A stretch of 64,000 nt of DNA from Actinomycetes bacterium (lineage in GTDB: Bacteria; Actinomycetota; Acidimicrobiia; Acidimicrobiales; Palsa-688). The translations under genes and the position numbers were made by a program. Below the pieces are notes generated by a model. The model worked only from the letters and a program-made list of their open reading frames with translations, was not told the DNA's origin and ran no database searches. The stretch lies in assembly GCA_021809105.1 (NCBI GenBank), contig JAKBAM010000005.1:64633-128632 (forward strand), written 5' to 3'. This document shows, in pieces, positions 28,723 to 50,766 of this stretch (its first letter is position 1; the number at the start of each line of letters is the position of its first letter).

Positions 28723-28839
28723 CCCCCCATCGGTCCCGTCAGGTCGACGTCGGCCGGGATCGGTCCGCTGGCCACGAAAGTCCAGGTCACAGCGGTGGGC
28801 GTCGGTCGGCGGCGTCAGACATCGGTGGCTACCGTCACC

Positions 28840-28882
28840 CTCATAACCCGAAGGTCGTTGGTTCAAATCCAACCCCCGCCAC
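28840..28882. repeat. attR core (43-bp direct repeat)
   Basis: Perfect copy of 8907-8949. It has only the anticodon loop and 3' half of tRNA-fMet, with unrelated sequence to its left, so it marks the element's right junction. The last codons and stop of the serine integrase lie antisense within it. Confidence 0.95.
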
Positions 28883-30527
28883 CACATAGCTCCAGCTGGG
28901 CGTGGACTAGTTCCCGCCCGGTTGGAGCTTCTTTTTCGTATTTGATGCTGAGGCCGAGCGCTCGGTAGAGGGCTGCTCGGTCGATGCGATCCGCCGCGGC
29001 CAGGAGCTCGACGAGTCCTCTGGCTTGGGTGAGCACAGCCCGCAGGTCGGGTTCGGTCAGTTGGGTCGGTCGCTCGTGCGATCGAACCCAACGTTCGATG
29101 ACGGATCTGGCGGCCATGATGTCGTTCTGGATCTGGCGGGTCTGCCCGGCGGCGAGGGTGGGGTCCATGCCGGCACGGACGGCCGCAAGGATTCGGTCCA
29201 GTTCTACTGCGAGACGGTGCTCTCGGTTGCGTGCTTGGGTCACGTCCGCGGGTTCGGTGTCGGCCTTTTCGTCCGCGGTCAGGATGGCAGCCACGGTGGC
29301 ATCGAGGTGGTCGGGGTCGGTGAGGAACCTGAGCCACTTGTCGACGGCGGCAAGGATGCGTTCTTCGCGGACCGTGTACGTGGGGGGGTGCCCGGGGGCC
29401 GAAGGCGTGGCGTAGTCGGGCCGGGTCGCCGAGCAGCGGTAGTAGGGCTTGTTCTTGGCGGTGTTGCCGGACATGGACTTTCCACAATGCGCACATCGGA
29501 TTGCCCCGGAGAGCAGGTACTGGCCCGGCTCGGAACGCTGCCGCCGACGGCCGTTGCCGTGGGTATTGGTGATGCGTTTGTTGACCCGCTCGAAAAGCTC
29601 GTTGGGCACGAGTGCCGGCCACGAGGGCTGTTCCGACCACGCCCAGGCCTCTGGGTCCTGCCATCGTTGGCGGGAGGTCGTGCCGAGGGCGGGGTCGCGG
29701 GTGTCGAGGAGTTCGTCGTGACGGCGTTGGCGTCCGGCGACCTGGTGGCCGAGATAGCGAGGGTTGATGAGGATGGCGCGCACCGCAGATCCACCCCAGA
29801 CCCCGGCGGAGCGCGGGTGTCGGACGGGTCCTACCTCGCCGGGGCTCAGGATGCCTTCAGTTTCGAGCCGTTGTGCGATGGAGCGGTAGCCGACGCCAGC
29901 GTCGTACAGGTCGAAGATGCGTCGGACGACGGGCGCGGTGTCTGGATCGGGTTCAAGGGTGCGGAGCTGTGCGCCCGCCGATGCCTTGGCGCGGTTGGGG
30001 TGGGGGACGCCGGTATCGACGACTCGGTAGCCGTAGTTGGGCCGACCGCCGAGCCATCTTCCGTCGGCGGCGAGGGCTAGGGCGGCGGCTCTGGTGCGGT
30101 GCTGGATGCGCCGCCGCTCGGCCTTGGACAACCCACCGAAGAGACTCATGACGAGGTCGTGAGCCTCACTGTCGGGGTCGACCGCGCCCCCGATCTCGGG
30201 CACCCACAGCTCGACACCGAAATGGGACAGGACGGGGAACACCAATTGGAACTGCGGGCCGGAGAAGGCTCGCTGGGGTTCGCCAATCACAAGTCGCTTC
30301 CATCCGCGGCCCGGGTCGGCCACGTCGGTGAGGAGGCGGCTGGCTTCGGGGCGACGACTCCAGGGCAGCGACCGGCTCACGTTGATGTCGTGATACACGG
30401 CGGTGATACTCCCGGCGTGCGGGACTATCAGCTGATTGGCAAGGGCGAGCTGCCAGCGCTTTGAGTCTTCCGGCGATTGGTTGTCTTCGGTGCTGGTGCG
30501 TACGTAGGCGGCGAATGGCTCGGTCAT
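28863..30527 (-). CDS. large serine integrase
   Basis: A 554-residue large serine recombinase. Catalytic domain: YVRTSTEDNQ with nucleophile S12, then VIGEPQRAFSGPQF and LFGGLSKAERRRIQHRTRAA. The Recombinase domain follows (GYRSIAQRLETEGI, then AVRAILINPRYLGHQV), then a zinc ribbon (CAHCGKSMSGN...YYRC) near 345 and a coiled-coil region. ATG 30527 is chosen because the catalytic strand begins right after it and it overlaps the upstream stop; the longer frame upstream has no homology. The stop lies inside attR. Confidence 0.94.
   Translation of the reverse strand: MTEPFAAYVRTSTEDNQSPEDSKRWQLALANQLIVPHAGSITAVYHDINVSRSLPWSRRPEASRLLTDVADPGRGWKRLVIGEPQRAFSGPQFQLVFPVLSHFGVELWVPEIGGAVDPDSEAHDLVMSLFGGLSKAERRRIQHRTRAAALALAADGRWLGGRPNYGYRVVDTGVPHPNRAKASAGAQLRTLEPDPDTAPVVRRIFDLYDAGVGYRSIAQRLETEGILSPGEVGPVRHPRSAGVWGGSAVRAILINPRYLGHQVAGRQRRHDELLDTRDPALGTTSRQRWQDPEAWAWSEQPSWPALVPNELFERVNKRITNTHGNGRRRQRSEPGQYLLSGAIRCAHCGKSMSGNTAKNKPYYRCSATRPDYATPSAPGHPPTYTVREERILAAVDKWLRFLTDPDHLDATVAAILTADEKADTEPADVTQARNREHRLAVELDRILAAVRAGMDPTLAAGQTRQIQNDIMAARSVIERWVRSHERPTQLTEPDLRAVLTQARGLVELLAAADRIDRAALYRALGLSIKYEKEAPTGRELVHAQLELCGGGGWI
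28888..28936 (+). terminator. original tRNA-fMet terminator, now beyond attR
   Basis: AGCTCCA and TGGAGCT, with inner GGGCG/CGCCC pairing, are followed by TCTTTTT. It sits just past the tRNA-derived attR and would have ended tRNA transcription before the 20-kb element inserted. It lies inside the coding region of the serine integrase on the other strand. Confidence 0.75.
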
Positions 30528-42709: not shown

Positions 42710-43683
42710 GCATCGGCCTCGACGCCACCGCCTCCTCCGGGCTCGGCACCAAGATCGCCTCCGGTGCCGCCGGCCTCGTCCTCGTGGTCGCCGTCCTCGC
42801 CGCCGGGGCCGGTGCCGGAGTCGCCTCGCTCCTCGGTGGCGGCGACAGCACCCCCAGCACCACGGCCAGCGACAACATCCCCGCCGCCATGCTCACCCTC
42901 TACCAAGAGGCAGCCACCACCTGCCCCGGGCTGCCCTGGACCGTGCTCGCCGCCATCGGCACCGTCGAATCGGGCAACGGGACCTCGAACCTTCCCGGCG
43001 TCCACTCCGGCGCCAACTCCGCCCGGGCCGAAGGACCCATGCAGTTCGAGCCCGCCACCTTCGCCGCCTACGACACCCCCGTCCCGCCCGGCGGGGCCAA
43101 CCCGCCCAGCCCGTATGACCCGACCGACGCCGTTTACGCGGCGGTCCGGATGCTCTGCGCCAACGGAGCCGAAAACGGCGCCAACCTCAACGCCGCCGTC
43201 TACGCCTACAACCACAGCGACGCCTACGTGTCCGAGGTCCTCGACCTCGCCCAGACCTACGGCCAGACCCAGGCCCAGACCGTCGCCGCCGACACCGCCG
43301 GCGGGATCGCTGTCGACTGGGCGCTCGCCCAAGTCGGCACCCCCTACATCTGGGGCGGCGAGACCCCCGGCGTCGGCTTCGACTGCTCCGGCCTCGTCCA
43401 GGCTGCCTACAAGGTCGCCGGCATCACCCTGCCCCGAGTCGCCCAGGACCAGTACGACGCCACCACCAAGCTCGGGCCGAACGACCCCATCGAACCTGGC
43501 GACCTCGTCTTCTTCGGAGGCGGACCCACCAACGTCAGCCACGTCGGCATCTACATCGGTAACGGCCAAATGGTCGACGCCCCGTACACCGGAGCCGACG
43601 TCCGAGTGGAATCGACCCCGACCACTCCCGGTGCCTTGTGGGGCAGCGACATCGTCGCCGGCGTCACCGACCCGGCCGGTTGA
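42706..43683 (+). CDS. VirB1-like bifunctional wall hydrolase (SLT plus NlpC/P60)
   Basis: A 325-residue secreted hydrolase. GTG 42706 opens a short polar start and membrane helix AGLVLVVAVLAAGAGAGVAS. A transglycosylase-like domain (LAAIGTVESGNG with E88, GPMQFEPATFAAY) is followed by an NlpC/P60 peptidase with C227 in FDCSGLVQAAY and H279 in VSHVGIYIG. It would open peptidoglycan for the transfer channel. Last gene of the rightward transfer operon. Confidence 0.9.
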   Translation: MSIGLDATASSGLGTKIASGAAGLVLVVAVLAAGAGAGVASLLGGGDSTPSTTASDNIPAAMLTLYQEAATTCPGLPWTVLAAIGTVESGNGTSNLPGVHSGANSARAEGPMQFEPATFAAYDTPVPPGGANPPSPYDPTDAVYAAVRMLCANGAENGANLNAAVYAYNHSDAYVSEVLDLAQTYGQTQAQTVAADTAGGIAVDWALAQVGTPYIWGGETPGVGFDCSGLVQAAYKVAGITLPRVAQDQYDATTKLGPNDPIEPGDLVFFGGGPTNVSHVGIYIGNGQMVDAPYTGADVRVESTPTTPGALWGSDIVAGVTDPAG

Positions 43684-43841
43684 TACGGGGGCCGGCCCAG
43701 GATCCGGCATCCCGTCACAGCCTGGCGCGAGACTCGACGCACACTGGCACGGGCTGGGAGGCCGCCACGAGGTCGAGGCGCGGGGACTGACCCCGGCCGG
43801 AGCGGCCTGCCGACCTCCAGACAGTGGAACTGGCCCTATCG

Positions 43842-43870
43842 GAGCTGTAACACTCGGAAGCTTGTATAGT
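43842..43870 (+). promoter_or_regulatory. candidate promoter for the RHH-methyltransferase pair
   Basis: TATAGT at 43865-43870 is a good -10; the -35 at about 17 bp upstream is poor. It is 37 bp before ATG 43908. The 224-bp gap 43684-43907 holds no gene and separates transfer from defence-like genes. Confidence 0.45.
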
Positions 43871-43907
43871 TCGCGATGGTCACTTCCGTTTGACACTGGA
43901 CTTAGCG

Positions 43908-44081
43908 ATGGCGCGCATCAATGTGGACTTGGATGACGAACTGCACCGGAAGGTTAAGGCTGCGGCCGCGCTCCAGGGTGTCACGCTCAAGGACTTCGTC
44001 GTGACGACGTTGCAGGGCGCGGTCGAGGAGGTCTCGCACCAAGTTCGGCCATCCGAACAGGCCAAAGGCCGTCGGTCTTGA
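43908..44081 (+). CDS. ribbon-helix-helix protein
   Basis: A 57-residue protein: ARINVDLDDELHRKVKAAAA LQGVTLKDFVVTTLQGAVEE is a typical MetJ/Arc/ParD-type ribbon-helix-helix DNA-binding fold. Its stop overlaps the TTG start of the cytosine methyltransferase, so the two are coupled. It most likely represses its own operon and so tunes methyltransferase level. No toxin gene is adjacent, which argues against a simple antitoxin. Confidence 0.8.
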   Translation: MARINVDLDDELHRKVKAAAALQGVTLKDFVVTTLQGAVEEVSHQVRPSEQAKGRRS

Positions 44082-45382
44082 GAACTTCAGGGACGGCGCT
44101 GTCGCTGTTCACCGGCGCCATGGGGCTCGACTTGGGTCTGGAGGCCGCCGGGTTCCGCGTCATCGGCGCGGTCGACAGCAATCCCAGGGCAGCAAAGACC
44201 GTCGCGCGAAACCGGCCCGACGTGCCTTTCTTTGACGGCCGCATCGAGGACGTGTCGACTGAGGAGCTGCTGGAGCTCGCTGGCGTTGACGTCGGAGCGG
44301 TGACGGTCGTGAGTGGTGGTCCAAGCTGCCAGTCGTTCAGTACGGCCGGACAACGACGGTCACTGGGCGACCCTCGCGGGACCTTGTTCCGCGAGTTTGT
44401 CCGCGTGGTGACTGAAGCCAAGCCGCGCTTCTTCGTCATGGAGAACGTCCGCGGCATCCTGTCCGCTGCCATCCGCCACCGGCCGTTGGCCGAACGTGGG
44501 CCAGGGAAGCCCACCCTCAAACCTGATGAATGTTATGGATCGGCCTTTCTGAGCATCCTGGGCGAACTGCAAGCAACCGGTTACTCGCTGTTCTTCGATC
44601 TATTGAACGCCGCTGACTACGGGGCGCCGCAACGTCGCGAGCGCTTGTTGATCGTCGGGTCACGTGACGGCGAGCGGGTTGTGTTTCCCAAGCCGACGCA
44701 TGCACGTGAGCCTGCGGACGGCCTGTCCCGTTGGGTCACCCTCCGCCAGGCGCTGGCGGATCTCGACGATCCGGCGCCAGCTTTCACCCAGCTGCCCCCA
44801 TCGAAACGGAAGGTCATGGCCCTGGTGCCGGAAGGAGGCAACTGGCGAGACCTCCCACCGAAGCGGCACCCGGAGATCCTCGGTCGTGCGTTTCAGTCCT
44901 GGGGCGGCCGTACCGGTTTCTATCGACGTCTCAGTTGGGACGAACCGACGCCGGCACTCACGACTAGGCCAGACAGCAAGGCGACCATGCTCTGCCATCC
45001 GACGGAACTGCGACCGCTCTCGATCCGGGAGTATGCGCGCATCCAACAGTTCCCAGATGACTGGATGTTTGAGGGCAGTGTCGCCCAGCAATACGAGCAG
45101 ATCGGCAACGCCGTTCCCGTCGGCCTCGGTTGGGTGGCCGGGGAAGCGATCCGCTTGGCGATACGGCACATACCTGGTCGGGCCGCGCCGGGACGGGTTT
45201 ACTGCGACAACGCCGACCTACTGCGACGCCTAGGCCAAGGGGCTGGGACGGTACTCAACCCGCGCCGCATGCGAGAGGGCGCCACTGACACGAAGACGAC
45301 GCGAACCTGGATGGCCGGGGTCCATGAGAACCGCTCGCGGATCCTCGAGATCGTCGGCCCGTGGGTTGCCAGCACCTCTTGA
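44078..45382 (+). CDS. C5-cytosine DNA methyltransferase
   Basis: A 434-residue Dcm-type enzyme starting at TTG 44078; later starts would lose motif I. Motif I ALSLFTGAMGLDLGLEAAGF, motif IV GGPSCQSFS with nucleophile C84 (Ser replaces the usual Pro of PCQ), motif VI MENVRG, motif VIII QRRERLLIVGSR, target-recognition region ~215-300, and motifs IX-X REYARIQQFPDDW and QIGNAVP. The last ~60 residues are extra and overlap the convergent nuclease gene. A Vsr-like gene in the island fits a cytosine methylase. Confidence 0.95.
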   Translation: MRTSGTALSLFTGAMGLDLGLEAAGFRVIGAVDSNPRAAKTVARNRPDVPFFDGRIEDVSTEELLELAGVDVGAVTVVSGGPSCQSFSTAGQRRSLGDPRGTLFREFVRVVTEAKPRFFVMENVRGILSAAIRHRPLAERGPGKPTLKPDECYGSAFLSILGELQATGYSLFFDLLNAADYGAPQRRERLLIVGSRDGERVVFPKPTHAREPADGLSRWVTLRQALADLDDPAPAFTQLPPSKRKVMALVPEGGNWRDLPPKRHPEILGRAFQSWGGRTGFYRRLSWDEPTPALTTRPDSKATMLCHPTELRPLSIREYARIQQFPDDWMFEGSVAQQYEQIGNAVPVGLGWVAGEAIRLAIRHIPGRAAPGRVYCDNADLLRRLGQGAGTVLNPRRMREGATDTKTTRTWMAGVHENRSRILEIVGPWVASTS

Positions 45383-45805
45383 AGTTGAACCTCCCGCCGC
45401 GAAGACGGCAGTCACGACACCGCTGTTACCCCCCATCGGGCGGACTGAGGGCACACACCCCGACCAACCGAGTTCACGGGCGAGACAGGTGATGGTTCCT
45501 GACCACGGAGTCGTCGTGGCTCGCGGGCAACACAGGACCAGGATCCCGATACGGCCGCTACGGGCGTGCGAGATGACCCACGTCAGGTAGCGGGCAAGAC
45601 GGACCATGGTCTCTGAACCACGCGGGTGCTCGGTGTCCTTCGCCTCGCCGACGAACAGCAGGTGACGCTGTGGTGAGAATCGCAGCACATCGGGTTCCGT
45701 GCCGTCCGGCAACCACCGCAGGTCGATAGCGGCACCGACCAAGGTCGCTAGCGCGACGAGGACGTCGACACGATCCTCGTGGGCGACGCCACCGGTACCG
45801 CTCAC
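45230..45805 (-). CDS. putative PD-(D/E)XK nuclease
   Basis: A 191-residue protein. EPDVLRFSPQRHLLFVGEAK gives D39, E54 and K56 in the order D-x14-E-x-K of PD-(D/E)XK nucleases, followed by a conserved-looking helix (ETMVRLARYLTWVISH). GTG 45805 overlaps the SNF2 stop. Its last ~150 bp overlap the convergent methyltransferase 3' end; that tail is probably not structural. It is the best candidate for the cutting subunit of this island. Confidence 0.65.
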   Translation of the reverse strand: MSGTGGVAHEDRVDVLVALATLVGAAIDLRWLPDGTEPDVLRFSPQRHLLFVGEAKDTEHPRGSETMVRLARYLTWVISHARSGRIGILVLCCPRATTTPWSGTITCLARELGWSGCVPSVRPMGGNSGVVTAVFAAGGSTSRGAGNPRADDLEDPRAVLMDPGHPGSRRLRVSGALSHAARVEYRPSPLA

Positions 45806-47571
45806 GCCCGACCCGCAGCCGACAACGACGAGGATCGCCTCAGCTCATCGATCATCGCGGTCCTCGTGGGCGGCGGGATGACTTCGTCGCCGAGCAGCTC
45901 CTGGGCGCTCTGCTCCTTGGCGTTCAGCCTTTCGTACTCGACTTCTTCGATCGTGTCCTCGGCGAGCAGCACTAAGTACTCGACCTGGCGGTCCTGGCCG
46001 CGGCGGTGGATCCGGTCCAAGCTCTGGAGGTAATGGGCCGCCTGGTTCGAAAATGACTCGTACAGGGCAAAACGTGCCCGGTGCAAGGTGATCCCTGCCC
46101 CCGCCGCAGCGGGGTTCCCGACGAACAGCATGGTCGAGTCGTCGGTCTGGAACCTTTCGATCGCCTCGCGGCGGAGTTGGACATCTCCTACCGTGCCGTC
46201 ATAGCGGACCGGTCGATAGCGGTGGTATCTGGCGACGAGCGCATCGATCGCCGCCGTGTAATAGGACCATACGACGACCTTCTCGTGTTGCCGGCCCACG
46301 AGATCAGCCAATAGCTCGTCCATCGCCAGGAGTTTGGCAGGGGTCTCGGTCCAGTCCTCGACGACGCCGCCTGGGTTAGAGCACACCTGCAGGAGCGCGC
46401 TACGGCGAGCCAGGAACGACGTCAGCTCCTTTCGGAACTGGGTGTCGTCATAGGTTTCGAGGTCTTTGACGAGCCCGGCCGCTAGGTCGTCATAGACGGC
46501 GCGCTGGCGCGGTGCCAGCGGCAGGAGGACCCTGGTGAATGATTTCCCCGGCAGGTCAGGTAGCACCTGGCTCTTGAGGCTCCGGACGAGCAGGCCGCGT
46601 CGGGATAGGACGTCGGCGACCACCGGTCGAGCCTCCTCGCGGTCTTCGGGGATGCTCGTCCCCCGGAACGCCGTACCGAAATCAACCAGGTTGTGCTGCT
46701 CGACGACGTCATGGGGGGAGTTCGGGGCCGGGGTCCCGCACAGCACGAAGGCCCTCCCACACCATTCACGCAGCCGACGCATGGCCCGCGTACGCCGGGC
46801 GTCAGAGTTCTTCACGTAGAAGGACTCGTCGACGACGAGCACCGCCCGGTCAGCTCGCCGACCGAGCAACGCGCGCAGCTCGGCCTCCATGGTGACGGTG
46901 GATTCGAAGTTGGTGACGAGCACCTCAGGCATCCCCGACAGTGCTGCCCGCTTCTCACGAGGAGCACCCACCAGCATCCTGACGTCGTACAGCGACCCGC
47001 GGAACCGTTCGAAGTCACGGGGCCACTCGGCGACCATGCTCTTCGGTGCCACGATCAACAGGAAGTCGGCCTCGTCGCGGTGGTGGAGGACGTCGAAAGC
47101 GAAGATGGTGGTCACCGTCTTGCCGGCGCCTTGCTCGTCGAAGACGCACAGGCCGAAAGCATCACGACCGGTCATGGCGGCGACGTTGACCCACTGGTGG
47201 TCGTCGAGCACGTCCAAGCCGGGCACGTCGGTTAGCCGCGTCTTTGCCAAAGACGGCCCCCCATCTATGACCGACCGGATGTCCGTCAGGACCGTGTCGT
47301 AGCGCTCGGCGACCCGGACGCGGTTCTCCGACCACCGCTTCGCCTCGTCGGCCCAACGGAGGCGGACGGACGAGGCCGCGAGGAGCAGTGGTAGGTCCTG
47401 GACCCCGACGACCACGCCCGCTGCGCTTCGACGTAGTGCCGTCATGCCCTCCGCCGCGAGCGCTTGGATGACGAGGCCGTCCGACGACCGGCCGCCTGAC
47501 GAGAGCACGACGCAGTCGGCGCCCTCGCCGAGACGGACTTCAGCCGTTGGCACCGACGGGCTCGTCGTCAC
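45802..47571 (-). CDS. SNF2-family helicase/translocase
   Basis: A 589-residue superfamily 2 ATPase. Walker A DEQGAGKT at 145-152, motif II VLVVDESFYVKN at 245-256 (DESF in place of DEAH), LCGTPAPNSPHDV as motif III, and helicase C motifs MLFVGNPAAAGAGITLHRA and QSLDRIHRRGQ. A ~90-residue N-terminal region is unlike other SNF2 proteins. Such translocases drive restriction complexes along DNA. It overlaps the ParB-like gene by 32 bp. Confidence 0.92.
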   Translation of the reverse strand: MTTSPSVPTAEVRLGEGADCVVLSSGGRSSDGLVIQALAAEGMTALRRSAAGVVVGVQDLPLLLAASSVRLRWADEAKRWSENRVRVAERYDTVLTDIRSVIDGGPSLAKTRLTDVPGLDVLDDHQWVNVAAMTGRDAFGLCVFDEQGAGKTVTTIFAFDVLHHRDEADFLLIVAPKSMVAEWPRDFERFRGSLYDVRMLVGAPREKRAALSGMPEVLVTNFESTVTMEAELRALLGRRADRAVLVVDESFYVKNSDARRTRAMRRLREWCGRAFVLCGTPAPNSPHDVVEQHNLVDFGTAFRGTSIPEDREEARPVVADVLSRRGLLVRSLKSQVLPDLPGKSFTRVLLPLAPRQRAVYDDLAAGLVKDLETYDDTQFRKELTSFLARRSALLQVCSNPGGVVEDWTETPAKLLAMDELLADLVGRQHEKVVVWSYYTAAIDALVARYHRYRPVRYDGTVGDVQLRREAIERFQTDDSTMLFVGNPAAAGAGITLHRARFALYESFSNQAAHYLQSLDRIHRRGQDRQVEYLVLLAEDTIEEVEYERLNAKEQSAQELLGDEVIPPPTRTAMIDELRRSSSLSAAGRA

Positions 47572-49102
47572 CTAGCACCTCCTCGGCCTGGACTCGCACC
47601 AATTCGAGCGAGCGGAGCAACCTCCTCAGGTTGGCCGGCGTGATCTGGTCCCGGAACGCCTTGACCGGGAGGTCTTCGAGCCAGCTCGTGAAGGCCTCGA
47701 TCCGGCTGTTGGCACCGAGCATTCGGGTCTCCGCCTTGCGGGCGCGGGCGATCGAGAGCGCGTCCTCTACCTGGTCCTGGGCCTCATCGGTGTCGACGGT
47801 TTCCTTGGCCTTCTTCAAGAGCTCATAGGCGTCACCGTCGCTAAGGACGTGCTTGAGGTCGCGAATCTGGCTGAACCTACGGAACTTCCCGTCATAGAGC
47901 AGGTCGAACACGGTCTGGCGGAGCTGGTCATCCTGGTTCATCGCGAACGCGACCCCACCCGACCCACGACCCTTCTGCAACTCGTCGAAGTACTGGAAGT
48001 ACCTGCTCGCCCGGTGCTGCACCTCGAAGACATCGCGCTTGTTCTTGGCCAGGTGGTGGTCCTCGAACTCGAGCGCCCAACCCATCATGTTGAGGTACCG
48101 GTTGACCGTGGTGGTGTCGGGGCCAAGGCCGAACTGCTTGGACAGCTCGCGCTTCATCTGCGCTTGCTCCTTAGGACCAGGGGTCCTCGGGAGCGCCGCC
48201 AACAGCGACTGCCAACGGTCGTAGACCTTCCTCGCCTTGATGTAGTCCGGCCACTCCTCCTTGAAGTCGGGCTCGAAGTTCAAGGACATCATCACCGCTT
48301 CGCGGTCTTCGTCCGTGGCGTGCTCGGTCAGCTGCCAAACGAAGAGCCACTCAACGCGGTCACGTTCGGTCGCGTCGAACTCGATCGGGTTCGCAAGGAT
48401 GTACTTCGAGGCGGCGACCCGACGGTTCCCGTCGAGGAGGGTGCCGTCGACGTCAATGATCGGAGGCTTTTGCACACCATTTGCCGCGATACTGCGCGCC
48501 AGCGGTCGGATTCTGAACTGGTCGTCGCGGTCTTCTTCGTCGACACCGGTCAGCTTGAGGTTGCTCAACATGATGTCGAGCACCTCGCCGGGGGTGGGCT
48601 CACGCCCCTCTTGCTGTTCGAACTGCTTCGTGTGGATGTCCAAGCGCTCGTTGTCGTCCCACAGCTGGACGTCGTGGACTCGCACGAAGCCTTGGACCAT
48701 CGGCACTCTCCGGCCGAGGTAGATCGGCGTGGGGTGCACAGCACCGACCTTGGTGTTCAGTCGGTCCTGCAGCGTCAATTTCGCTGGGGCCTCGTTTTCA
48801 GACGCTGGTGTGCTGCCACCGTGGTCCGCTGCCACGCTCTCCCGTAGCCGGATCACCTTCTCCACGAAGGCCCCGACATCGTCGAGATCCGTTGCCGCGG
48901 ACTCGTCGGAGAGTACCTCGCTGTTAGAGCCCAAGGTAGTGAGGAGGGTTGTGAGGGCTCGACGCGCCTCGTCGCGTGAGAGCGGTCGCTCCAGCCCCAG
49001 GCGGAGGATGTCCTCGGCACCGTTCCCCGCTGCAGGCGATAGGGCGAATGCCTCCTGCAGCAAGGCTTCGAACTCTTCGCGAAGGTCCATCTGGTCGTTC
49101 AT
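47540..49102 (-). CDS. ParB/Srx-fold protein
   Basis: A 520-residue protein. Residues ~195-260 form a ParB/sulfiredoxin N-domain (IRPLARSIAANGVQKPPIID then LLDGNRRVAASKYI, with GNRR at 225-228), which in ParB relatives binds or hydrolyses nucleotides. The N-terminal 110 residues are helical and acidic; the C-terminal half is a long helical region (KQFGLGPDTTTVNRYLNMMG looks like an HTH). Not a plasmid ParB: no parA lies nearby. Coupled to the sigma-like gene by ATGA. Confidence 0.8.
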   Translation of the reverse strand: MNDQMDLREEFEALLQEAFALSPAAGNGAEDILRLGLERPLSRDEARRALTTLLTTLGSNSEVLSDESAATDLDDVGAFVEKVIRLRESVAADHGGSTPASENEAPAKLTLQDRLNTKVGAVHPTPIYLGRRVPMVQGFVRVHDVQLWDDNERLDIHTKQFEQQEGREPTPGEVLDIMLSNLKLTGVDEEDRDDQFRIRPLARSIAANGVQKPPIIDVDGTLLDGNRRVAASKYILANPIEFDATERDRVEWLFVWQLTEHATDEDREAVMMSLNFEPDFKEEWPDYIKARKVYDRWQSLLAALPRTPGPKEQAQMKRELSKQFGLGPDTTTVNRYLNMMGWALEFEDHHLAKNKRDVFEVQHRASRYFQYFDELQKGRGSGGVAFAMNQDDQLRQTVFDLLYDGKFRRFSQIRDLKHVLSDGDAYELLKKAKETVDTDEAQDQVEDALSIARARKAETRMLGANSRIEAFTSWLEDLPVKAFRDQITPANLRRLLRSLELVRVQAEEVLGDDEPVGANG

Positions 49103-49794
49103 TCGGTCTCCTCCGATTCCTCGTTGCCTGGGAGCTCCAGTTCCATCGGGAGGAGCTCGAAATGTTCTGCGGCCAGTCCTTCTTCCTGGGCGACGCGTGA
49201 GAGTCGCCTGAACCCGCGGTGCGCCCAGGTCTTGACGTTGTCCTTGTCCATCCCCAAGGCGTCGGCGATCTCCTGATAGCCCAGCGACGCGACACCTTGC
49301 TCGACCGCATCGATGTAGAAGCCCATGACCGCCTGTACGTTCGCCGAGCCCACCCTGGGGAGAAGGCCGCGAGCGAGCTGGGCGAGCTTCGAGCGACGCT
49401 CGCTGTCGTCGGGCAGCAGGTCGCGGCGGAGGCTGCCGACGGCCAAGGGCATCTCCCCGCGCAGCTCCTCTCGTTCACGGGCTCGCATGATGTCCGCCGC
49501 CTTGTGCCGGGCTGCGCCGGCTAGCCACAGCACGGGATCCTCGACGGCGACCCCTTTGCCGAGGGCTTGGTACAGAGCCTCAAAGGCCTCGGCGACCGCT
49601 TGGTTCACGTCGTCGGAGGGCAACCAGGACCACTGTGCCCGCAATCGGGCGCTGAGACCGTCGAACGCCGGGCTGGCGAAGAGCACCTTCACCGCTTCCC
49701 AGCGGTCCCCGGATGCCACGGCTAGGTTGAAGGCGGCCAACACCTCCTCCGAGAGCCGGCGCTGTCCTGATGTAACCGGCTCTCCGTCGCCCAC
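49099..49794 (-). CDS. sigma-70/ECF-like protein
   Basis: A 231-residue protein with an ECF layout: SDDVNQAVAEAFEALYQALG ... WLAGAARHKAADIMRARERE as a region-2-like part and VASLGYQEIADALGMDKDNV KTWAHRGFRRL as region 4. GTG 49794 has an excellent ribosome site (GAGGAGG, 6 nt). Whether it acts as a sigma factor or as a DNA-binding subunit is open. Coupled to the ParB-like gene and 56 bp after the Vsr-like gene. Confidence 0.75.
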   Translation of the reverse strand: MGDGEPVTSGQRRLSEEVLAAFNLAVASGDRWEAVKVLFASPAFDGLSARLRAQWSWLPSDDVNQAVAEAFEALYQALGKGVAVEDPVLWLAGAARHKAADIMRAREREELRGEMPLAVGSLRRDLLPDDSERRSKLAQLARGLLPRVGSANVQAVMGFYIDAVEQGVASLGYQEIADALGMDKDNVKTWAHRGFRRLSRVAQEEGLAAEHFELLPMELELPGNEESEETE

Positions 49795-49850
49795 TGAACC
49801 TCCTCTCGCCTTCGTTCTTCACATAGGAGTCGGTGGGCCGTAACAGTTGG

Positions 49851-50333
49851 TTATTGCCAGCCGAGTTGCTTGAGCTCAGACCGAACGCGGTCGGCCACTG
49901 CGCCCGGTTCTTCGTGTTCCCACGCACGGATGACCCGCCAGCCGGCTGAGCGCAGCCGTTCATCAGTGTCGCGGTCGCGGTCCCAGTTCCTTCGCAACTT
50001 CGTGGCCCACCACTCGGTGTTGGTCTTGGCGTCGTGACCATGGTCAGGGCACCCGTGCCACCAGCAGCCGTCGACGAGGAGAGCGAGCCGGACCCGCGGG
50101 AAGGCCACATCGACCCGCCGTCGCATCCCCGGCAAGGCCGCGTACTCGACGCGGTAGCGCAGGCCGGCCGAGTAGAGGGCTCGGCGGACAGCCAGCTCAG
50201 GGGTGGTGTCCCGCCGACGCTGGCCGACCATCCGCCGACGCACCGCCGCTGATGAGGCCGGGGGCGCCGGAGGGCGCCGACCAGCTGTCAAGGCCTCGGT
50301 TGGGAGGGTGGGGACCGGACCAGCCGCGGTCAT
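49851..50333 (-). CDS. vsr: Vsr-type very-short-patch endonuclease
   Basis: A 160-residue protein from ATG 50333. It matches Vsr: RDTTPELAVRRALYSAGLRY, PGMRRRVDVAFPRVRLALLV with D75, DGCWWHGCPDHG with H93, TNTEWWATKLRRNWDRDRDT and GWRVIRAWEHE. Vsr nicks T:G mismatches from 5mC deamination and accompanies C5 methyltransferases. Here it heads the operon opposite the methyltransferase, and could be a repair partner or a recruited restriction nuclease. Confidence 0.92.
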   Translation of the reverse strand: MTAAGPVPTLPTEALTAGRRPPAPPASSAAVRRRMVGQRRRDTTPELAVRRALYSAGLRYRVEYAALPGMRRRVDVAFPRVRLALLVDGCWWHGCPDHGHDAKTNTEWWATKLRRNWDRDRDTDERLRSAGWRVIRAWEHEEPGAVADRVRSELKQLGWQ

Positions 50334-50455
50334 GCTCAAGCTTCTCATGGCGGAAGGCACGCTGTCGTGGCCGGCGACGCCCAGAGTCGGCGCCTTGCCT
50401 TCCCCGCTGAGCGGGGGTCTCATCGCTGCAGGCCCGCGATCAGGAGGTACGTGTC

Positions 50456-50766
50456 ATGCGGCGAGTCGCCATCTATACAAGTGAAGCACCAGGGAGGTCG
50501 GGCCGGGCCACGCTGGACTGCCAGGTTGCCGGGATGGTTGCCCAGGTCGCCCGTCAGCCCGGCTGGCAGCATGTCGCATCGACGTGGTGGTGGTCGACGG
50601 CTACGGGCGGCTGTCGCCCAACGGGCACGAACAGGGTGCGCTCGTCGCCCAACTGGGCGCGGCCGGCGTGAGGGTGGTGGTCCTGCGGCCGTCAGCTGGT
50701 CACCGGTTCGCGAAGGCGCTGGCGAACTTTGCGCTGGCCGCCCTGATCGGCGAAGGGCTCCGCTGA
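50456..50766 (+). pseudogene. frameshifted serine-recombinase remnant
   Basis: MRRVAIYTSEAPGRSGRATL and QPGWQHVAS read in one frame, then VVVVDGYGRLSPNGHEQGAL and GAAGVRVVVLRP continue in the +1 frame from about 50584. The order matches a resolvase N-domain with ~25 residues missing at the join, and the catalytic RVS is degenerate (YTSEA). A decayed recombinase between the defence-like island and the Tad operon, perhaps an old boundary. Confidence 0.65.

Follow-up and report, generated by a model that had tools for sequence, protein, structure and literature searches.

A probable 5-methylcytosine-protected restriction-modification-like system with ParB-like and sigma-like proteins at its core

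What might a genomic island do that sets a DNA methylase and a Vsr-type nuclease beside a sigma-like protein, a ParB-like protein and a SNF2 motor? The question is raised by a stretch of 64,000 nucleotides (nt), hereafter the window, from an Actinomycetes bacterium (Palsa-688; assembly GCA_021809105.1, contig JAKBAM010000005.1, 64,633–128,632 of the forward strand), in which a conjugative element bears seven open reading frames (ORFs) arranged as two convergent operons. One arm encodes a ribbon-helix-helix (RHH) protein and a C5-cytosine methylase; the other encodes Vsr, an ECF-sigma-like protein, the ParB-like protein, a SNF2-family translocase and a small PD-(D/E)XK protein, here called PDX. 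On balance, these genes probably constitute an undescribed multi-gene restriction-modification-like (R-M-like) system protected by 5-methylcytosine (5mC), which is carried as defense cargo by conjugative elements and phages and would act against phages or plasmids.

Recurrence of the gene set as a unit

Searches with single proteins returned no match: the ParB-like sequence was compared with plasmids, phages, viral contigs and some 700 genomes drawn at the levels of family, class and phylum, and the sigma-like and PDX sequences with plasmids. All three are too divergent or too rare to be picked up in this way. The route to relatives led through SNF2: it gave first one viral contig (L003), then four more via a three-row SNF2 alignment, and thereafter the signature NQAAH[YF]LQ, run as a DNA pattern through 84,980 species genomes, gave 67 stretches, 27 of them with real relatives and 40 with no detectable relative. 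One further viral record is in effect a duplicate of the Nitrospirillum copy. Once profiles derived from these loci had been used to annotate the fetched regions, the same core gene order could be recognized in a further 27 species genomes and in 6 viral contigs, i.e., 33 other loci from about 12 phyla; this count is a lower bound, since eight residues had to match exactly. An initial annotation of the window had proposed a search for such co-occurrence, and the core order does recur in other genomes. Chance adjacency was rejected on the same ground: the 77 loci used as controls, which carry other SNF2 proteins, never show the order, and all of them lack a sigma-like gene, a PDX gene and a ParB gene of the window's type; a distant ParB occurs in three and a C5 methylase in three.

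The relatives fall into two types. In type A (21 distinct loci, the window among them), the order is sigma-like > ParB-like (about 510 residues) > SNF2 > PDX with the methylase alongside; PDX is found in 16 of the 21 and an orthologous methylase in 17 (for the latter, one further locus is truncated by a contig end); one of the 21 is cut by a contig end inside SNF2. The hosts, as given by record titles, are Actinobacteria, Proteobacteria, Planctomycetes, Chloroflexi, Cyanobacteria, Acidobacteria (Bryobacterales) and Binatia. In type B (12 loci), the order is methylase > Z (about 275 residues) > ParB-like (about 374 residues) > SNF2 > a PD-(D/E)XK-type protein of about 400 residues with a C-terminal D-x12-E-x-K motif, whose gene is lost to a contig end in one locus. 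These loci come from Nitrospinota, Nitrospira, Kiritimatiellae, Proteobacteria, Chitinophagaceae, Kaiserbacteria, an unplaced bacterial metagenome-assembled genome (MAG) and viral contigs. The ParB-like proteins of the two types are homologous (hhalign 99.95%, 1e-37). No known family could be assigned to Z, and the idea that it is a diverged sigma-like protein was rejected, as its comparison with the sigma-like profile gives nothing. A profile comparison likewise detected no homology between PDX and the type B nuclease-type protein, so that a shared nuclease slot in the two types is argued from position and motif. The type B copy of the Kaiserbacteria MAG (L184; Patescibacteria) is about 77–91% identical, gene by gene, to the viral contigs L007 and L008, and a portal/adaptor gene lies near the type B system in one viral contig; the system is apparently carried here by a phage of this reduced-genome group.

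In a maximum-likelihood tree, 33 SNF2s of the system form one clade (support 100/99) apart from 14 other SNF2s, within which types A (98/96) and B (98/94) each lie on one side of a branch. The row nearest to the window's SNF2 is an actinobacterial MAG (L173), at a support of 93/72 that is below the strong threshold, and the convergent RHH-methylase arm is also present there. The partners vary together with SNF2: correlations of pairwise distances in type A are 0.88 for ParB, 0.87 for the sigma-like protein, 0.80 for the methylase and 0.73 for PDX, and in type B they range over 0.93–0.95 (Mantel p<0.001 in both types); type A methylase and ParB distances are correlated at r=0.90.

These patterns bear on whether an orphan Dcm-Vsr pair merely happens to neighbor an unrelated sigma-ParB-SNF2-PDX operon in the window. 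The convergence of the two arms, the lack of a linked methylase in three cyanobacterial copies, and an additional Dcm-Vsr pair 2.4 kb away in L173 might be read in this manner, but the orthologous methylase stands beside the core in most type A loci and in all 12 of type B, its distances follow those of the core, and, with side and orientation varying, several copies lie on the same strand in a single operon. Mere neighborhood is thus largely refuted by the co-occurrence and very improbable.

The island itself (Table 1) has a GC content of 0.64–0.66 against 0.71–0.73 in the surrounding element, with genes overlapping in its minus-strand arm (by 4, 32 and 4 nt). On one flank, an NlpC/P60+SLT gene adjoins Replication-relaxation (Replic_Relax) and TraG-like genes; on the other flank is a region with genes for prepilin-peptidase-like and BTAD/LysM proteins. 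A second copy of the conjugative element is present in the same genome on contig C111 (C111:74000-92500, here L201), its NlpC protein being 78% identical. In a blastn comparison, the window matches this sister element at 81% identity up to 43676 and collinearity resumes at 50391; the island is therefore exactly one cargo, whose slot in the sister element (L201 11312–15386) holds an abortive-infection pair, namely an AbiEii nucleotidyltransferase (8e-29) and an AbiEi-like partner, along with an MFS transporter and an HTH (helix-turn-helix) regulator. The initial annotation had read the island as seven genes in two convergent, overlapping operons within a conjugative element, spanning 43908–50333. 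Every ORF and overlap proved real, and the gene families, including those of the RHH-methylase arm, the Vsr-type domain and the SNF2 translocase, are as it listed them; its boundaries need adjusting, both because the Vsr ORF may start further out and because the cargo slot is larger (Table 1). Co-occurrence, co-variation and the cargo slot lend strong support to the system it envisaged, one that is conserved, linked to methylation and built on ParB-like and sigma-like proteins in its core.

Table 1. Features of the island, in positions of the window
Feature	Position	Strand	Basis
Whole cargo	43677..50390	.	replaced by other cargo in the same genome's sister element; blastn against L201, GC shift
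RHH, ParD/HicB-like ribbon-helix-helix protein	43908..44081	+	PF09386 1e-8; 4-nt overlap with methylase gene
DCM, C5-cytosine DNA methyltransferase	44078..45382	+	PF00145 1e-57, TIGR00675
PDX, small PD-(D/E)XK protein, candidate nuclease	45230..45805	-	conserved P38-D39 / E54-x-K56
SNF2, SWI2/SNF2-family ATPase/translocase	45802..47571	-	PF00176 4e-20, PF00271
ParB-like protein	47540..49102	-	DGNRR motif, AlphaFold model fold matches, PHROGs 5e-5
SIG, ECF-sigma-like protein	49099..49794	-	TIGR02937 7e-6; profile A10 against PDB sigma-E 3e-7
VSR, very-short-patch-repair endonuclease	49851..50423	-	TIGR00632 113 bits; first start codon 50423

Carriage by a conjugative element, together with the serine recombinases seen near several loci, would also be compatible with an addiction or element-maintenance module, in which methylase and nuclease kill the cells that lose the element and phage defense is incidental. 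Against this stand a set of five to seven genes including a translocase, which is unusual for addiction, the presence of the system in phage genomes and genomic contigs of many phyla, and the alternation of the island with abortive-infection cargo. An addiction role is accordingly distinctly unlikely.

The methylase and its repair partner

The window's genome has no PF00145 match other than the methylase, whose catalytic motifs are intact. Vsr exceeds the curated TIGR00632 cut-off (113.3 versus 97.85 bits), with its domain beginning near residue 59 and its catalytic Asp and GCxWHG block in place, and it lies near a C5 methylase, as in the Dcm-Vsr pair. Deamination of 5mC yields T and hence T:G mismatches, which are corrected by Vsr in E. 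coli and by glycosylases of the Mig type.

The same position can be taken by an unrelated enzyme. In the viral contig L003, an HhH-GPD glycosylase gene (PF00730) sits between the methylase and the sigma-like gene, its product being closest to endonuclease III while also matching the G-T mismatch enzyme 1kea. Such a glycosylase is paired with the methylase as a separate gene in 7 loci (one of them cut), and endonuclease III-like domains are fused to it in 4 (L163 6111–8318, L168 11565–13547, L179 4717–6687 and L186 11234–13312). Vsr is borne by the window, L162, L170 and L173 (there beside a second methylase), and it too is fused to the methylase in two cases, Geodermatophilus and Nocardia. Of 10 aligned glycosylases, 9 keep both catalytic residues of endonuclease III, Lys and Asp; most Vsr proteins likewise retain their catalytic Asp and the His within the GCFWH block (in Nocardia, Asn replaces this His). 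On the SNF2 tree, the label of the slot changes at least 5 times.

That unrelated T:G repair enzymes interchange and fuse to the methylase is a pattern which a working 5mC methylase would select. It supports a role of the Vsr slot in the repair of T:G mismatches from 5mC deamination, by which it would functionally belong with the methylase, and it removes Vsr from the likely effectors. Thus, the part of the initial annotation that had counted Vsr into the restriction logic is not supported, and Vsr as the restriction nuclease was rejected. In L173, the segment 2285–6526, directly upstream of the type A operon, encodes another Dcm-Vsr pair together with a PDC-S28-like helicase, a candidate defense gene.

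The core proteins and a possible mechanism

The sigma-like protein taken alone is below the Pfam cut-off (23.6 versus 25.7 bits); the profile of 20 relatives matches sigma-E over residues 55–208, covering both sigma2- and sigma4-like regions, which bears out its earlier assignment to the ECF-sigma-like proteins. The ParB fold of its neighbor, also named by the initial annotation, is invisible to Pfam and matched weakly in a PHROGs search with the single sequence, and is supported by the AlphaFold model (predicted local distance difference test, pLDDT, 82), whose best 13 matches in the PDB are all of ParB/KorB type (probability 0.89–1.0, E 0.004–0.13). Its architecture comprises a ParB N-domain with a DGNRR motif invariant in 20 of 20 relatives, a helix-turn-helix and a helical C-terminus. 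ParB-fold proteins include clamps gated by cytidine triphosphate (CTP); with those of the segregation ParB/KorB group, the protein shares the N-domain, the helix-turn-helix and the GNRR motif, but it differs from them in its extra N- and C-terminal helical regions and its methylase-SNF2-nuclease context, its neighbors in every tabulated locus being the sigma-like protein (or Z) and SNF2 and not ParA. Parallels exist within conflict systems, in which ParB-fold proteins include nucleoside triphosphate-regulated nucleases (PMC10853773, PMC12839542, PMC5512222) and in which BrxL of BREX has a sigma-HTH-like domain as its predicted DNA-binding part, a precedent for the sigma-like component (PMC12839542).

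The SNF2 proteins carry the signatures FDEQGxGKT and SNQAAH[YF]LQS, and their nearest structures are dsDNA translocases and chromatin remodelers, not RapA specifically. In PDX, the D-x14-E-x-K pattern noticed at the outset is a real PD-(D/E)XK signature: P38, D39 and K56 are invariant in 13 of 13 relatives, with either E or D at position 54 throughout. Its model (pLDDT about 96 over residues 10–130) has an order of helices and strands compatible with a PD-(D/E)XK core, which makes PDX, and not Vsr, the candidate nuclease.

The following scheme may be drawn. The methylase would mark host DNA with 5mC at a fixed site, with the RHH protein, a probable regulator, tuning it, and Vsr or the endonuclease III-like glycosylase would mend the resulting T:G mismatches as a maintenance part rather than a weapon. 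The sigma-like and ParB-like proteins would form a module for recognition of, and loading on, unmethylated DNA, the latter perhaps as a nucleotide-gated clamp; the SNF2 motor would then move along the dsDNA and PDX would cut, as their families and the operon order suggest. A more far-reaching claim, that this constitutes a new class of defense in which a sigma-fold protein and a ParB-fold clamp load SNF2 on the invader, with 5mC as the self mark and deamination repair built in, is offered as a tentative possibility.

Several observations weigh against a 5mC-protected R-M-like system of this kind. The ParB fold matches are consistent, yet individually weak, none reaching E<0.001, and the sigma-like protein may simply serve as a conventional regulator of the operon. 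For PDX, the model has no fold match in the PDB with E<=0.001, and the gene is missing in five type A loci, with none elsewhere in the five genomes searched. R-M genes adjoin some copies of the system, which speaks in favor of such a role, but the neighbors considered with PADLOC were picked by size and not sampled at random. Finally, three cyanobacterial copies lack both a linked methylase and PDX, neither of which is therefore obligatory there, yet they encode other, more distant C5 methylases. These copies (L165, L166 and L178, from Nostoc, Calothrix and Iningainema) consist of sigma-like > ParB-like > SNF2 only; that of Nostoc adjoins a Type IIG R-M gene. Loci without PDX and/or a linked methylase suggest that the sigma-ParB-SNF2 trio is the irreducible core.

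Such copies also keep alive an alternative in which the trio, invariant in type A, is itself the effector and acts on the transcription complexes of the invader: the sigma-like protein would engage polymerase or promoters, a contact that is possible with both sigma2- and sigma4-like regions recognizable, SNF2 would remove or stall polymerase in the manner of RapA, and methylation would be no more than a self mark. However, type B has no sigma-like protein, yet keeps a nuclease-type protein, PDX and the methylase are retained in most type A copies, and the structural neighbors of SNF2 do not single out RapA. An attack on transcription is hence unlikely.

Relation to known systems and further observations

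The nearest published architecture is that of the MORC/paraMORC operons (Iyer, Abhiman and Aravind 2008; PMC2292703), which combine a superfamily 2 (SF2) helicase, in one group of SWI2/SNF2 type, with a C5 methylase, Vsr and a separate restriction-fold nuclease. These are built around a GHKL ATPase, whereas none of the seven island proteins matches the GHKL/HATPase family, and ParB-fold and sigma-fold proteins form the core instead. With class 2 DISARM the island shares a multi-gene helicase logic and a methylase of the DrmMII-type family, but its proteins match none of DrmA, DrmB (DUF1998), DrmC and DrmE, the similarity of SNF2 to DrmD being generic. Neither PglZ, BrxC/PglY nor PglX of BREX was detected in the island (SNF2-BrxH similarity is weak and generic), nor DndC/DndD/DndE or SspB-E of Dnd/Ssp, apart from a sub-threshold helicase match. 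Among PADLOC models, those nearest to the SNF2 core are ZorD (2e-29) and DpdE (6e-28), with matches limited to that core; the ZorD NCBIfam score is 28.9 bits against a cut-off of 1500, the ZorA/B motor is lacking, and the island has no other Dpd protein. PADLOC has no family above noise for the ParB-like protein, the sigma-like protein, PDX, Z or the type B nuclease.

In Dcm-Vsr of E. coli, too, a T:G repair enzyme accompanies a C5 methylase, as it does in the Mig-methylase pair, Mig (PDB 1kea) being a T:G glycosylase beside an archaeal C5 methylase. Both pairs stand without a sigma-ParB-SNF2-PDX operon, and the methylase-repair fusions are seen in the relatives of the island. Full-text literature searches combining the components found no description, with most subscription papers outside their coverage. 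Thus, the initial view that no named system has this exact set stands for DISARM, BREX, Dnd/Ssp, Zorya and MORC-type R-M: the system matches none of those tested in composition and is in this sense undescribed. Its methylase-translocase-nuclease logic is already known; the ParB-fold and sigma-fold core is the new part.

If the reading as a 5mC-protected R-M-like system is correct, a widespread and unnamed anti-invader system would have as core subunits two folds, ParB and sigma, which to our knowledge, and in the papers searched, are not known in that role in restriction systems. It would further mean that a dedicated mutation-repair enzyme travels with 5mC-based systems, alternating between two unrelated folds and at times fused to the methylase, which would turn the cost of 5mC into a selective force open to testing. 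The system is directly testable, as copies exist in the cultured Aquibium, Nitrospirillum, Herbaspirillum, Aliidiomarina, Methylobacillus, Geodermatophilus and Nocardia.

A remote third arrangement occurs on a Bradyrhizobium plasmid (L002 5295–10365) and in L010, with two to three tandem ParB-like genes and SNF2 and no linked methylase; in L002 there is also a small protein with an EAK motif, and ATP-binding, radical-SAM and DGQHR-domain genes come after the arrangement. The 16-nt sequence CTTGTATAGWTSGCGA occurs twice in the window and nowhere else in it, each time a short way upstream of one arm of the island (43861–43876, + strand, and 50466–50481, - strand) and co-oriented with transcription. 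Promising at first sight, it was set aside: two matches also arise in 6 of 100 shuffles (not significant), and it is absent from L173. At the right edge of the cargo (50456–50766, + strand), a serine-resolvase-like N-terminal fragment is split over two frames, which reflects either decay or an assembly error, the frame being open in the sister element. Further away, at 28794–28884 of the window, a tRNA is called by ARAGORN, its anticodon being unclear.

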